Notes under the pieces: generated by a model
Databases searched by the model: none
What the model saw: only the letters and a program-made list of their open reading frames with translations
Told to the model about the DNA's origin: nothing
Made by a program: the position numbers and the translations under genes
Origin: Niallia circulans
Lineage (GTDB): Bacteria > Bacillota > Bacilli > Bacillales > Cytobacillaceae
DNA length: 64,000 nt
Assembly (NCBI RefSeq): GCF_003726095.1
Contig: NZ_CP026031.1
Span: forward strand, 3,410,001 to 3,474,000
Reading direction: 5' to 3'
In this document: positions 4,926 through 53,033 of the stretch, in pieces
Position numbering within the stretch: the stretch's first letter is position 1
Layout: each line of letters begins with the position of its first letter

Positions 4926-5180
4926 TGTTTGGCTGATATTTTCCCAGGTTGGCTGATTCCTCTCCCACTTTGGCTGATATTTTCCTAGGTTGGCTGATTT
5001 CTCCCTTACTTTGGCTGATATTTTCCCAGGTTGGCTGATTTCTCCCTTACTTTGGCTGATATTTTCCTAGTTTTGGCTGATTCCTCCTCCACTTTGGCTG
5101 ATATTTTCCCAGGTTGGCTGATTCCTCCTCCACTTTGCCTGATATTTTCTCAGTTTGGCTGATTCCTCCCTCACCTTGCC
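4926..5180 (-). repeat. phased repeat array 1, core ATCAGCCAA (minus orientation), about 12 units
   Basis: The plus strand reads TTGGCTGAT every 20-21 bases from 4929 to 5155, 12 sites including one variant (TTGCCTGAT), then decays. The mean spacing is 20.5 bp. Intervening sequence alternates between a type ending CCTGGGAAAAT and a purine-rich type (GTGGAGGAGG) when read on the minus strand. The array lies downstream of the NERD gene and in its sense orientation, just before the terminator at 4841-4875. Confidence 0.9.
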
Positions 5181-5251: not shown

Positions 5252-6202
5252 TTATGGGTTTTGATACTTTCTTCCTCTATTTTCTCCTATACTTCGCAAA
5301 TTCATTCTTACTAGCATTTTAGCAGCTGTTTCACGTGAGGATATGTTGGCAAATTGCCGGAATTCTTTATTTGTAATAGTGGCTTTTATTAATAAAAAAT
5401 AATCGTTCACTGTTTGGTGATGGGCATTTTTGTCATATGTGTGGCAGTGAGGACAGAACCATTTGCGTTTTTGACGTATCATCGCAAATTTTTCGCATGC
5501 TGGGCATTGTACACCTGTGATGAGGTCACTTTGTGGGATTCCATATTTTCTTAGTAGATCGATACTTTCAGGAGTGTTATTTTTCAAGAGATTTTTGGAT
5601 ACTTTGCGGAGGAGCTTCCCTTCTACCACAGTCACTTTATATTTTTGAGAGAGATTGTCCCATTTTTCTAAAAAACTATGACTGTGAATGACTTTATCTC
5701 TGATAGCTGGACTTCCTTTTAATATAGTAGATGAACTGCTGAATATTATGATGAATTCGATGGGGATTGGCGGGAGATTATGCAGTTGAAAGTACTTTTG
5801 CAATTGACGTTGGTGCCTTTTTGCTTGGGAAATTGGATTCGAATAGCCTTCTACCTTTTCATCTACTTTGCGAATCATCTGATTAAAGTTGGAGTCAATC
5901 TCTACTTCTCCATAATAGTTTTTGCATTCGACAATAAGAGCAAATTTTTGCGTGAGGATGAGATAGTCCATCTGGAAATATGTTTTTCCATCGTAGAGGC
6001 GAAGATTATGAATGATGAGGCAATCTTTGTCTGGCAAAAATTGAAAGTAATACTTCATATCTTTCTCACCCCGATAGCCTGCTAACAATTTCCTTAAATC
6101 TTCCATTACATTCGGTCTAAGCTTATACGTTTCTTTTAATCTTTTGATTAGAATTTCCGTAGTTTTTAATCTATTGCTCTTACCAATTTCGTTTATAAAC
6201 AA
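5252..6202 (-). CDS. NERD-domain protein with C-terminal zinc ribbon
   Basis: I place the start at TTG 6202, seven bases after GGAAG, giving 316 residues. The resulting N-terminus (FINEIGKSNRL) matches the usual start of Bacillus NERD proteins, whereas the frame upstream is translated repeat array. The nuclease-related domain covers about residues 35-160, with the conserved segments MDYLIL and VECKNYYGEVE (an E-x-K pair). A zinc ribbon follows near the C-terminus, with CPAC and CPHC about 20 residues apart. NERD domains resemble endonuclease folds and are presumed to act on DNA, but the cellular role is unknown. The gene is flanked on both sides by same-orientation repeat arrays. Confidence 0.83.
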   Translation of the reverse strand: MFINEIGKSNRLKTTEILIKRLKETYKLRPNVMEDLRKLLAGYRGEKDMKYYFQFLPDKDCLIIHNLRLYDGKTYFQMDYLILTQKFALIVECKNYYGEVEIDSNFNQMIRKVDEKVEGYSNPISQAKRHQRQLQKYFQLHNLPPIPIEFIIIFSSSSTILKGSPAIRDKVIHSHSFLEKWDNLSQKYKVTVVEGKLLRKVSKNLLKNNTPESIDLLRKYGIPQSDLITGVQCPACEKFAMIRQKRKWFCPHCHTYDKNAHHQTVNDYFLLIKATITNKEFRQFANISSRETAAKMLVRMNLRSIGENRGRKYQNP

Positions 6203-6282
6203 TTTACCACTTCCTTTCTCTATTTCATTTATTCTATTTGTTTGCTTGAAAATCCTTTTTTTGGTGGGGAGAGGGATTGGGG

Positions 6283-6450
6283 TTGGCTGATATTTTCCTA
6301 GTTTGGCTGATTCCACCCTCACTTTGGCTGATATTTTCCCAGTTTGGCTGATTCCAACCTCACTTTGGCTGATTCCTACTCTACTTTGGCTGATATCCCC
6401 CGCACTTTGGCTGATTCCACCCCAACTTCGACTGATATCCGCTGATTTCC
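6283..6450 (-). repeat. phased repeat array 2, core ATCAGCCAA (minus orientation), 8-9 units
   Basis: TTGGCTGAT or a close variant occurs at 6283, 6303, 6324, 6344, 6365, 6386, 6407 and 6428 on the plus strand, at 20-21 bp intervals. A degenerate unit follows near 6437. The array lies directly upstream of the NERD gene in the same orientation. It keeps a frame open that would add a 92-residue artificial N-terminus to the NERD protein. Confidence 0.9.
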
Positions 6451-6555
6451 TCGCCTGCTTCAGCAAAACCCACCCCAATCAAGCCAATTCTCCCCATATT
6501 TCAATCCATTCACATCAAACTTCTCCAACCACCCCGCTCAATTAGTCAAACTATC

Positions 6556-15059: not shown

Positions 15060-15570
15060 TTTAGCCAAACTTTGACAGATATCAGCCAAAGTAAGGGGCG
15101 AATCAGCCAAAGTACAGAGGGTATCAGCCAAACTGGGGATTTATCAGCCAAAGTACAGAGGGTATCAGCCAAACTTGGAAAATATCAGCCAAAGTACAGA
15201 GAGAATCAGCCAAACTGAGAATTTATCAGCCAAAGTACAGAGAGAATCAGCCAAACTTGGAAAATATCAGCCAAAGTACAGAGAGAATCAGCCAAACTTG
15301 GAAAATATCAGCCAAAACACAGAGGCTATCAGCCAAACTTGGAAAATATCAGCCAAAGCTCAGAGGTAATCAGCCAAACTTGGAAAATATCAGCCAAAGC
15401 TCAGAGGTAATCAGCCAAACTTGGAAAATATCAGCCAAAGTACAGAGAGAATCAGCCAAACTTGGGATTTATCAGCCAAAGTACAGAGGGTATCAGCCAA
15501 ACTTGGAAAATATCAGCCAAAGTACAGAGAGAATCAGCCAAACTTGGAAAATATCAGCCAAAACAAAGTC
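15060..15570 (+). repeat. phased repeat array 3, core ATCAGCCAAA, 24 units (plus orientation)
   Basis: ATCAGCC occurs 24 times from 15081 to 15553 at 20-21 bp intervals (mean 20.5), with one decayed unit before. Two half-units alternate: one continues CTTGGAAAAT, the other GTACAGAGAGA, giving a 41-bp dimer repeat. The array fills the gap between two convergent genes (efflux pump and oxidoreductase). No unit contains a stop in the relevant frames, so spurious long frames cross it. Confidence 0.95.
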
Positions 15571-28063: not shown

Positions 28064-28195
28064 GGAGGATGAGGTTGCAGCATTTATGGTATTGTTGCGG
28101 TTTATTCAACTTTGTTTGCAGTTTTGCTACTTTTGCTTGCGACTCTCTCCATTTTACTTGCGACTCTGTCAACTTTGCTTGTGGGCTCCCCCTCA
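28064..28195 (-). repeat. 21-bp phased array, CTTGCGACT family, copy 2
   Basis: TTGC (or TTGT in the last unit) occurs at about 28075, 28095, 28116, 28137, 28158 and 28179 on the plus strand, stepping by 20-21 bases. The clearest units read ACTTGCGACTCT. It lies in the divergent gap between the esterase gene and the GntR/LacI-type regulator. Confidence 0.85.
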
Positions 28196-32900: not shown

Positions 32901-33080
32901 GTTTGGAAGGCGTGGTGCGAGTAGAATGTTAAATGAAGGAAGGGAATTTGCAGTGGTGATTGAATGTGGAGTCGATTTGAGTGCCGTTTTGTGGTAATCC
33001 TTCTAATTTTGGCGGAGATTTGGAATTATTGGCTAGAAACACTGAGACAAGAGCAAAATTAAACGAAGAGATTTTAGGAT

Positions 33081-33685
33081 ATCAGCCATTCTTCAGCACT
33101 TATCAGCCAAACCTCAGTACTTATCAGCCATTCTTCAGATTTATCAGCCAAACTTCAGATTTATCAGCCAAACCTCAGATTTATCAGCCAAACCTCAGAT
33201 TTATCAGCCAAACCTCAGATTTATCAGCCAAACCTCAGATTTATCAGCCAAACCTCAGATTTATCAGCCAAACCTCAGATTTATCAGCCATTCTTCAGAT
33301 TTATCAGCCATTCTTCAGTACTTATCAGCCAAACCTCATAACTTATCAGCCAAACCTCAGATTTATCAGCCAAACTTCATAACTTATCAGCCATTCTTCA
33401 GATTTATCAGCCAAACTTCAGTACTTATCAGCCAAACCTCAGATTTATCAGCCAAACTTCATAACTTATCAGCCATTCTTCAGATTTATCAGCCAAACTT
33501 CAGTACTTATCAGCCAAACTTCAGATTTATCAGCCAAACCTCAGTACTTATCAGCCAAACTTCAGATTTATCAGCCATTCTTCAGCACTTATCAGCCAAA
33601 CCTCATAACTTATCAGCCAAACTTCAGATTTATCAGCCAAACCTCATAACTTATCAGCCAAACCTCAGTACTTATCAGCCAAACC
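33081..33685 (+). repeat. phased repeat array 4, core ATCAGCC, 30 units (plus orientation)
   Basis: ATCAGCC occurs 30 times from 33081 to 33674, mean spacing 20.45 bp. After the core, units continue AAACCTCAG, AAACTTCAG or ATTCTTCAG, and the linker is ATTT (20-bp unit) or TACTT, CACTT or TAACTT (21-bp unit). Several units in the first third are identical (20-bp period), pointing to recent expansion. It fills the gap between convergent selU and galU. Confidence 0.96.
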
Positions 33686-33781: not shown

Positions 33782-34678
33782 TTACAATACTTTGATTTTA
33801 TCTAGATCAGCTTTATCCAGTACCGTTTTCATATATTCAATAATTTCTTCTCGCATTTCATCGCGTTGTAAAGCAAATTCTAATGTTGTTTTTACGAATC
33901 CTAATGTTTCACCAACATCATAACGATCTCCTTCGAAATCATAAGCAAAAACACGTTGAATTTGGTTTAATTGTTGGATGGCATCTGTTAATTGGATTTC
34001 TCCGCCTGCACCTGTTTTTTGATTTTCCAAGTACATGAAGATTTCTGGCGTTAGCACATAGCGACCCATGATTGCTAGGTTAGAAGGTGCTGTTCCAGGA
34101 GCTGGTTTTTCAATGAAATTATTCACCTGGTATCTTCTTCCTTCGCTCTCGCCTGGATCGACAATTCCGTAACGGTGTGTTTCATTATCTGGCACTGTTT
34201 GAACGCCGATAACAGAAGCATGTGTTTCTTCGTATTGGTCAATTAATTGTTTTAAGCATGGTGTATCGCTCTGAACGATGTCGTCACCAAGTAAAACAGC
34301 AAATGGCTCATCGCCAATAAAGCTTTTTGCACACCATACAGCATGTCCTAAGCCTTTTGGCTCTTTTTGTCTAATATAATGAATATCTGCAAGATTTGAA
34401 GAATATTGAACTTTCTCAAGCAATTCAAATTTCTCTTTATCACGAAGATTCTGTTCTAATTCATGTGCGTAATCGAAGTGATCTTCAATCGCTCTTTTTC
34501 CTTTACCTGTAACGATAATAATATCTTCAATACCAGAAGCAATTGCTTCTTCTACGATATATTGAATAGTAGGTTTATCGACAATTGGTAACATTTCTTT
34601 CGGCATCGCTTTCGTTGCTGGCAAAAATCTAGTACCTAGACCAGCGGCTGGAATGATCGCTTTTCTTACTTTTTTCAA
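33782..34678 (-). CDS. galU: UTP-glucose-1-phosphate uridylyltransferase
   Basis: A 298-residue nucleotidyltransferase very like Bacillus GtaB. The N-terminal [18 protein letters not shown] binds the nucleotide, and [28 protein letters not shown] and FVEKP-like [13 protein letters not shown] follow. It makes UDP-glucose for cell-wall teichoic acids, lipid anchors and exopolysaccharide. The start is TTG 34678, six to seven bases after GGAGGAAA. The frame is open upstream but the family begins exactly here. An extended -10 (TGGTATAAT) lies just upstream, near 34710-34718. Confidence 0.97.
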
Positions 34679-34984
34679 CTTATTTCCTCCTTTAGGCAAT
34701 TCACTTTTGATTATACCATTTTTTTGCTAAAAAGGAATTCAAATACGAATTTCTTCTTTGTAAATTATTAGTAAAAAACACAAAGATGTTCTGTATAAAA
34801 TCCTATCATCCTACCACTTCGTTCTTTATAACGTACAACTATTATATCACTTTGGCTTTTCTTTGAGAATAGTTGTATATGTATTTTTTAATAACTTATC
34901 ACTTTTTACAATATTTTGTCAAATTATCCCTAATAAGCATTAATTACATCTATAATTTTCAGAAAACTTATTATTTCAGCATAC
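34679..34984 (-). promoter_or_regulatory. galU upstream region
   Basis: Two extended -10 elements on the minus strand are visible, TGGTATAAT ending near 34710 and TGATATAAT near 34842. No clear -35 accompanies either. The rest holds no gene that I can support. Confidence 0.45.
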
Positions 34985-42239: not shown

Positions 42240-43320
42240 TAGGTTATGCAAGCTATTTTTCTTCTCTATTCTCCTTTTTGGCTTTCATCTGCGCTATGAA
42301 CGCCATCTTTCTCTTCCCTGCTCTCCTTTTTGGTTTTCATCTGCGCTATGAACACCATCTTTCTCTTCCCTGCTCTCCTTTTTGGCTTTCATCTGCGCTA
42401 TGAACGCCTTTTTTCTCTTCCCTGCTCTCCTTTTTGGCTTTCATCTGCGCTATGAACGCCATCTTTCTCTTCCCTGCTCTCCTTTTTGGTTTTCATCTGC
42501 GCTATGAACACCATCTTTCTCTTCCCTGCTCTCCTTTTTGGCTTTCATCAACGTTATGAACGCCTTTTTTCTCTTCCCTGCTCTCCTTTTTGGCTTTCAT
42601 CTGCGCTATGAACACCATCTTTCTCTTCCCTGCTCTCCTTTTTGGTTTTCATCTGCGCTATGAACACCTTTTTTCTCTTCAATGCTCTCCTTTTTGGTTT
42701 TCATCAACGTTATGAACACCATCTTTCTCTTCCCTGCTCTCCTTTTTGGCTTTCATCTGCGCTATGAACGCCATCTTTCTCTTCCCTGCTCTCCTTTTTG
42801 GTTTTCATCTGCGCTATGAACACCATCTTTCTCTTCCCTGCTCTCCTTTTTGGTTTTCATCTGCGCTATGAACGCCTTTTTTCTCTTCCCTGCTCTCCTT
42901 TTTGGTTTTCATCAACGTTATGAACACCATCTTTCTCTTCCCTGCTCTCCTTTTTGGTTTTCATCTGCGCTATGAACGCCTTTTTTCTCTTCCCTGCTCT
43001 CCTTTTTGGTTTTCATCTGCGCTATGAACACCATCTTTCTCTTCCCTGCTCTCCTTTTTGGCTTTCATCTGCGCTATGAACACCATCTTTCTCTTCCCTG
43101 CTCTCCTTTTTGGTTTTCATCTGCGCTATGAACACCTTTTTTCTCTTCCCTGCTCTCCTTTTTGGCTTTCATCTGCGCTATGAACGCCATCTTTCTCTTC
43201 CCTACTCTCCTTTTTGGTTTTCATCTGCGCTATGAACACCATCTTTCTCTTCCCTGCTCTCCTTTTTGGTTTTCATCTGCGCTATGAACGCCTTTTTTCT
43301 CTTCCCTGCTCTCTTTCATC
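42240..43320 (-). repeat. 52-bp tandem repeat, about 20 units (minisatellite)
   Basis: The unit CTCCTTTTTGG is found at 42271 and then every 52 bases to 43259, with partial units at both ends. Units differ at few sites: GGC or GGT, CTGCGC or CAACGT, ACG or ACA, and CAT or CTT before CTTTCTC. Each contains inverted arms TTCAT and ATGAA around a 7-nt centre. No unique spacers separate units, so it is not CRISPR. No long frame crosses it. It fills the divergent gap between the DUF2087 and HAD genes. Confidence 0.97.
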
Positions 43321-51194: not shown

Positions 51195-51285
51195 TTTGTT
51201 TGCGGGTCTATCTAGTTTTCTTGCGACTTTCTCCACTTTGCTTGCGACTTCCGCTCTTTTACTTGCGACTCTCCACTCAACGCAG
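51195..51285 (-). repeat. 21-bp phased array, CTTGCGACT family, copy 3
   Basis: TTGC occurs at 51200, 51221, 51242 and 51263 on the plus strand, exactly 21 bases apart. The best units read CTTTGCTTGCGACTT. The last unit abuts the trpS stop at 51277, and the purine-rich strand is again the sense strand of the neighbour gene. Confidence 0.85.
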
Positions 51286-52340: not shown

Positions 52341-52612
52341 CAAAAAGGGCTACTCATCCTAAAAAAGGACGAGTAACCCGTGGTGCCACCTTCATTCGTT
52401 TATATCCGATAAACGCACTTATCCGTACAGAAACATAGCCGTTTCTTATACTTTGTCTTTTTTAACGGTAAGACGTTCCGCGCAGCCTACTATTGGTTCA
52501 GCCTTGAAGCTCCGAAGCCCATTCAGCAATCAATCCGTACTGATTCGCACCAACCATCAGCTCTCTTAAACCTTTCAACTGCCTACTCTTCTTCCTCATC
52601 GCTCAATAATAT
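52341..52612 (-). ncRNA. T-box riboswitch of trpS (tryptophan)
   Basis: On the minus strand the leader has a stem I region with AGTAGGC-like and GGTTGGTGCGAATCAG segments, a UGG specifier near 52519-52521, and the T-box core AGGTGGCACCACGG (around 52379-52392). A terminator hairpin (13-14-bp stem with T5, about 52344-52378) overlaps the antiterminator. Uncharged tRNA-Trp should switch transcription on. A promoter TTGACC (52648-52643) and TACTAT (52625-52620) with 17-bp spacing precedes it. Confidence 0.95.
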
Positions 52613-52747: not shown

Positions 52748-52789
52748 TAAATTTTACTAATTATATCTTTTAATATATATGCTTTGATT

Positions 52790-53033
52790 GGAATCAGTAG
52801 TGCCTATTTCCCTGTTCTTAGAGAGTCAATGGCCGGTGCAAATTGACACAAAAATAGACGCGAATTACCTCCAAGAGCATTCTTTGTGAAAGAATTTTAT
52901 TCGATTAGCAAAGAACGGATGAGCCGTTACCCATAATGAGTGGAAGAATAGGAATAATTATATTCTTCAATTAGGGTGGTACCACGTGCTTACAAGCAAC
53001 CACGTCCCTTTTTTTAGGGGCGTGTTTTTTTGT
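52790..53033 (+). ncRNA. T-box riboswitch of tyrZ (tyrosine)
   Basis: The leader has AGAGAGTCAATGGCCGGTG and GTGAAAGAA-like stem I parts, a UAC (Tyr) specifier in GAATTACC near 52873, the T-box core AGGGTGGTACCACG (52973-52986) and a terminator (CACGTCCC with GGGGCGTG, then T7, about 53001-53033). It predicts induction by uncharged tRNA-Tyr. Confidence 0.95.

Follow-up and report, generated by a model that had tools for sequence, protein, structure and literature searches.

Phased ATCAGCC arrays in Niallia circulans as probable recognition arrays for a NERD-domain protein encoded between two of them

Four loci on the chromosome of Niallia circulans carry the heptamer ATCAGCC as direct repeats about two helical turns apart, raising the question of what holds so short a core at so regular a spacing. 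The stretch analyzed here, called the window, comprises 64,000 nucleotides (contig NZ_CP026031.1, positions 3,410,001 to 3,474,000) of the 5.18 Mb chromosome of genome G000. It contains 74 copies of ATCAGCC, whereas 100 shuffles gave 7.3 on average and never more than 14, and 72 of the 74 fall inside the four arrays. Array 1 (4928-5178, minus strand) and array 2 (6283-6447, minus strand) lie on the 3′ and 5′ sides, respectively, of a single gene encoding a NERD-domain protein, while array 3 (15060-15562, plus strand) and array 4 (33080-33685, plus strand) are each located between convergent genes, with array 4 adjoining the 3′ end of a nucleotidyl transferase (galU-like) gene at 33782-34699. 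Exact cores number 11, 7, 24, and 30 in arrays 1 to 4, and mean core-to-core steps are 20.55, 20.67, 20.52, and 20.45 bp, with steps of 20 and 21 bp mostly alternating in array 3. The original prediction of 12, 8-9, 24, and 30 units at a mean step of about 20.5 bases agrees with these values once one or two mutated units are added in each of arrays 1 and 2 (array 1 then has 12 units), and its account of two arrays in convergent gaps and two flanking one gene is borne out. Linkers differ from array to array, as had been claimed, and they recur within an array instead of being unique, consistent with the stated lack of CRISPR-like spacers.

Three further arrays in the window were missed in the original prediction, one of 52 bp and a pair of small CTTGCGAC arrays, all of them parts of systems that are sisters to the ATCAGCC arrays (class A). 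The 52-bp array (class C, GGCTTTCAT..ATGAACGCC, 42256-43313, plus strand) has 20.3 copies and a core identical to that of an array beside a second NERD gene, NERD-C, at 648464-649330 of the genome, and the two small arrays (class B, CTTGCGACT at 21 bp) lie at 28131-28181 and 51216-51278, both on the plus strand. Open reading frames traverse arrays 2 and 4 (5252-6478 and 32981-33382), and two divergent T-box leaders are found at 52362-52608 (minus strand) and 52775-53012 (plus strand).

A whole-genome comparison with array 3 gave 94 matches, which were grouped by eye into about 30 ATCAGCC arrays on both strands of the G000 chromosome; the region from 1.19 to 2.27 Mb gave no convincing match. 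Across 1.664 Mb, about a third of the chromosome, 18 arrays have at least three cores, and 326 of their 336 core-to-core steps are exactly 20 or 21 bp (222 of 21, 104 of 20, six of 41, and one each of 22, 30, 40, and 42). Roughly half of these 18 arrays alternate 20- and 21-bp steps with two linker types, and others step by 21 bp almost throughout. The unit consensus from 32 arrays in four genomes of the genus (G000, G001, G008, and G012) is WATCAGCCAAA, in which the three A residues after the core, unused in picking units, are conserved at 0.99, 0.99, and 0.91. Where orthologous gaps hold class A arrays in two species, the arrays were on the same strand in all 18 pairwise comparisons (six loci), and the mean difference was 0.54 in linkers and 0.03 in cores, the latter value being biased low because units were picked by seven core bases. 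Class A arrays sit mostly at gene 3′ ends. Among 31 arrays with two called neighbors, 12 were in convergent gaps, compared with 4.3 expected from gap length (p = 0.0005), and one was in a divergent gap, compared with 7.8 expected (p = 0.001); this test used a simple gene-calling model and counted orthologous loci of four species separately. A role in replication-strand polarity similar to KOPS or Chi was considered and rejected, because class A arrays occur on both strands along the chromosome.

The core and its step are also found outside Niallia. A scan of 397 genomes of the order returned three cores in a row at 20-21 bp in six genomes of five genera, G000 included, and the reversed pattern gave zero triples at this spacing in the same genomes. 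When steps from 9 to 39 bp were allowed in the five non-Niallia genomes, 59 of 82 pairs fell at 20 or 21 bp with 58 different linkers, and the reversed pattern gave none. These five genomes had been chosen for their triples at 20-21 bp, and 23 of the 82 pairs lie at other steps; outside the triples, 13 of 36 pairs were at 20 or 21 bp, compared with 2.3 expected from 31 equally likely steps (p = 2e-7). Since the arrays there are short and their linkers change from one unit to the next, the regularity is not explained by recent slippage. Short arrays were also seen, among the matches listed, in Paucisalibacillus globulus, Lentibacillus jeotgali, Peribacillus huizhouensis, Bacillus sp. FJAT-29790, and Sporolactobacillus vineae; most of the loci listed look like chance or coding repeats, and ten were inspected for array form. 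The checks proposed with the original prediction, a search of the genome and its relatives and an inventory of flanking gene orientations, returned about 30 chromosomal arrays, a core and step kept in four other genera with differing linkers, and an excess of convergent over divergent gaps. Strain-specific tandem duplications with freely drifting steps and a core absent from relatives, the outcome named as adverse, were not what was found.

The gene between arrays 1 and 2 (NERD-A; 5252-6202, minus strand) probably starts at a TTG codon at 6202 behind AAAGGAAGTGG, as judged from sequence, and its product is a clear member of PF08378 (74.3 bits against a curated cut-off of 22.1, E = 1.4e-20). 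NERD domains occur in many bacteria and in some archaea and plants and are reported to be of unknown biochemical function (PMC9040797). An AlphaFold model (pLDDT 94.8) and comparison with the PDB suggest a PD-(D/E)xK-like nuclease domain, a CxxC..CxxC zinc ribbon, and a C-terminal winged helix; among known systems, Can2, McrC, BstEII, and a Holliday junction resolvase, all PD-(D/E)xK nucleases, are counted with the closest. Residues Q78, D80, and K95 are invariant in an alignment of 39 sequences (38 of 78 homologs plus the window protein) and also in 13 proteins representing both NERD subfamilies described below, and position 93 is E or D across those 13, so that the D and (D/E)xK residues of such nucleases are conserved. 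All four zinc-ribbon cysteines are invariant in the 13 proteins; in the 39 sequences three are invariant and C237 is conserved at 90% or more. One public NERD-A protein (P0001, 404 aa) has an N-terminus seemingly extended by array-encoded residues, probably an annotation artefact, and a homolog of 78% identity (P0003) is filed under Yersinia enterocolitica, possibly from a mislabelled or contaminated assembly.

The NERD gene beside arrays 1 and 2, together with a NERD gene beside an ATCAGCC array in G382, a genome of another family, led to a search for NERD genes in 18 genomes, of which 17 had them. Flanks were read for 17 of 90 NERD entries, comprising 14 genes of zinc-ribbon architecture and three of other architecture. 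All 14 zinc-ribbon genes, from six genomes (G000 and G001, four each; G382, three; G008, G010, and G004, one each), adjoin a phased array within about 150 bp of the open frame, one of these arrays being eroded. Five of the 14 had been chosen for an array already known nearby; the other nine (seven with orthologs merged) had not, and all nine have one. By comparison, the genes within 500 bp of an array in the stretches read were 54 of 1483 (3.6%) in G000, 32 of 339 in G001, 36 of 355 in G008, and 10 of 231 in G010, a share of 9-10% in the G001 and G008 stretches. None of the three NERD genes without the zinc ribbon has an array beside it, so the pairing rule covers one architecture only. The eroded array adjoins NERD-E of G001, although the NERD-E gene is open, and in G113, G235, G366, and G424 no NERD match was found beside the ATCAGCC pairs present there. 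The pairing was not found described in the literature searched on NERD and repeat topics, a search at abstract level with incomplete coverage. Both NERD-B (G001:C1:4191800-4194100) and its relative NERD-B′ (G010:C26) lie directly upstream of a ComFA-like gene, as judged by eye.

Each zinc-ribbon NERD gene has its own kind of neighbor. NERD-A adjoins ATCAGCC in G000, G001, and G008, as read from flanks, and in G012, as read from coordinates; NERD-B adjoins CTTGCGACT, NERD-E adjoins ATTCGCG, and NERD-C and NERD-D adjoin two different 52-bp units. The classes with a step of 20-21 bp in these genomes include, besides class A, class B (CTTGCGACT), class E (TTCGCGAA), and class F (TCCAAA), while classes C and D form 52-bp arrays, the class C unit containing an inverted GGCGTTCAT/ATGAACGCC pair. 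In G382, arrays of ATCAGCC, of TTTTGGCAYGAA, and of a third 52-bp unit accompany the three NERD genes. Arrays were expected from the model at NERD-B′ of G010 and at a NERD relative in G004, and both were found: GTTGCG at 20-21 bp, which is also the core of the dispersed arrays of G010, and TTATTCGCC at 21 bp in 21.7 copies, respectively. A split with support 1.00 in the 13-protein tree separates nine proteins that have 20-21 bp arrays from four that have 52 bp arrays, and the two subfamilies are about 20% identical; with the two sets on opposite sides of one branch, array period goes with protein subfamily. Cores are also related where the proteins are: NERD-B and NERD-B′ (55% identical) have TTGCGAC and GTTGCG, and NERD-A, I (of G004), and E (51-55% identical) have TATCAGCC, TATTCGCC, and TATTCGCG. 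Identity between NERD-A and the protein encoded next to ATCAGCC in G382 is only 32%, however, and the two do not cluster in the tree.

Arrays and genes also tend to occur, and to be lost, together. Of 13 genomes of the genus, five (G000, G001, G008, G009, and G012) have NERD-A at 75% identity or more and eight do not, and these five are exactly the genomes with ATCAGCC pairs. The five look like one clade by galU identity, so this co-occurrence may reflect one event and is weak alone. Stronger evidence comes from class B inside the clade, where genomes with an open NERD-B have 42 (G001), 24 (G009), and 14 (G008) exact class B pairs and those with a broken NERD-B have six (G000) and one (G012). 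G000 has only a relic of NERD-B, and its repeats at orthologous class B gaps are eroded yet still alignable. In G009 the NERD-B match contains one stop, although a frame of 341 aa is open. Exact class C pairs number 47 in G001, 31 in G000, and four in G012, the three genomes in which NERD-C-type genes were found, and zero in the other ten genomes of the genus. G009 has a NERD gene of the 52-bp type by length and of uncertain orthology and, in a fragmented assembly, no exact class C pair, and G008 has no recognisable full-length NERD-C-type gene. Contrary to the rule, class D arrays stand in G001 and G008, where two NERD fragments (197 and 226 aa) may, as judged from position only, be truncated copies of NERD-D.

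Together, these patterns make it probable that NERD-A (5252-6202) recognizes the ATCAGCC arrays and that each NERD protein with a zinc ribbon reads its own array; direct binding, nuclease activity, and purpose are inferred. With units recurring every two turns, the C-terminal part of NERD-A would read the WATCAGCC core from a single face of the helix, and sister proteins would read other cores, one subfamily on two-turn arrays (20-21 bp) and the second on five-turn arrays (52 bp). Of the two roles proposed originally, that of protein-binding sites aligned on a single DNA face gains from a core and two-turn step kept with unrelated linkers, from a putative winged-helix protein encoded between two arrays, and from relatives of that protein encoded beside arrays of their own, all at the level of sequence; that of a structured transcript fares poorly, as discussed below.

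Given recognition, the arrays may also be made by the protein that reads them. The NERD nuclease would nick or cut at a distance that its own geometry fixes, and the stretch would then be duplicated during repair; arrays would grow, become homogenised, and keep their core only while the NERD protein is present, settling where they are tolerated, mostly at gene 3′ ends. Conservation of the catalytic residues, homogenisation of the linkers, class B erosion where the gene is broken, and a fixed period in each subfamily favor a nuclease that both builds and maintains arrays. Cutting at a fixed reach followed by repair duplication is the leading candidate mechanism, with a probability somewhat below an even chance. 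The fullest version, a self-propagating bacterial satellite in which NERD nucleases cut two or five turns from the core, repair yields tandem units, and each protein writes its own array beside its gene and across the chromosome, with a period equal to the ruler length of its subfamily, is a more speculative possibility and somewhat less probable again. If the period is indeed a ruler set by the protein, these arrays would be a bacterial counterpart of enzyme-driven satellite DNA and would supply new sequence-specific DNA-binding proteins whose targets are readable. In any case, NERD function becomes directly approachable through a specific DNA core, a rule for its spacing, and an array that occurs naturally next to the gene.

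Other readings of the arrays are also conceivable. NERD proteins may coat the arrays and insulate convergent transcription or organise the nucleoid without cutting, which is unlikely overall and survives best among the alternatives. It would account for the preference of class A for convergent gaps and its avoidance of divergent ones, for the constant strand in orthologous gaps, and for the finding that a gap occupied by class A in one species may have a 52-bp or class F array in a second species. It fits poorly, however, with nuclease residues that are invariant in both subfamilies, with class B arrays being in convergent gaps in none of 14 cases, with the many orthologous gaps that have no detected array in another species (49 listed cases, some with remnants), and with the eight of 13 genus genomes that do without NERD-A and its arrays. 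A second, rather less likely reading is defence, in which the arrays act as self marks or harmless depots for a nuclease that is set free on, or turned against, invading DNA. The uneven distribution and broken copies of NERD genes would suit this role, as would weak profile matches to PglW, MADS6, and MkoA, which are defence proteins with a NERD domain; those to MkoA and PglW with PADLOC models were partial, the best reaching E = 5.9e-6 over part of a 1607-position model. Against it, the best NCBIfam score for the window protein and six relatives was 23.2 bits with a cut-off of 460, the scanned genes beside arrays are mostly metabolic, and a plasmid collection had no homolog at E 1e-8. Neutral minisatellites produced by slippage, lying near NERD genes by chance because both occupy permissive places, are very improbable: homogenisation within loci and the placement of class A at gene 3′ ends are as expected of them, but the core and step kept with 58 different linkers in other genera and the matches of class, period, and gene loss with NERD genes are not. 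An RNA-level element, such as a structured or sponge transcript, is hardly credible, as three of four folds are worse than those of shuffles (z = +1.8, +1.3, and +2.5; 300 bases, two arrays) and one, that of the array 4 minus strand, is somewhat better (z = -2.2), arrays occur in both orientations, and no Rfam family is found at the window arrays.

Several well-known repeat systems resemble the proposed recognition arrays in part. Plasmid iterons with their Rep initiators are likewise direct, non-palindromic repeats about two turns apart beside the gene of a binding protein, but the arrays here number in the tens on a chromosome, come in several classes per genome and in a 52-bp version, and have a different protein, the gene between arrays 1 and 2 being NERD and not Rep. 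REP/BIME elements are similarly dispersed, have alternating units, and often lie between convergent genes, yet the class A core is asymmetric and not palindromic, and the partner here is a NERD protein. CRISPR arrays share regular repeats with intervening sequence; here, in contrast, cores are 7-10 bp, Niallia arrays reuse their linkers of about 10-14 bp, no cas gene but a NERD gene lies between arrays 1 and 2, and a Pfam scan of ten window proteins, mostly array neighbors, gave no cas match. LytTR-type direct repeats are 9 bp with a 12-bp spacer and share the 21-bp step, but the partner here is a NERD/zinc-ribbon/winged-helix protein, and class A avoids divergent promoter gaps. A likeness to LytTR sites and to DnaA boxes, no more than a resemblance, was dropped once the link to NERD appeared. 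With NERD-domain proteins generally, NERD-A shares PF08378 membership, but neither an array partner nor a DNA target was found for them in the abstract-level literature search; one NERD-domain protein, SmdA, is a membrane protein reported to be without several of the most conserved NERD residues.

Some arrays stand apart from this scheme. Class F arrays of G008 (TTTATTGTCCAAA / TTTATGATCCAAA; G008:C1:4248280-4248385 and 4270776-4270897) are without an assigned NERD gene, and one class F array of this genome occupies the place of the G000 ATCAGCC array beside galU. Arrays with a period of about 153-154 bp, outside the phased classes, are also present in gaps at G000:C1:152585-152940 and G008:C1:4383146-4384256.
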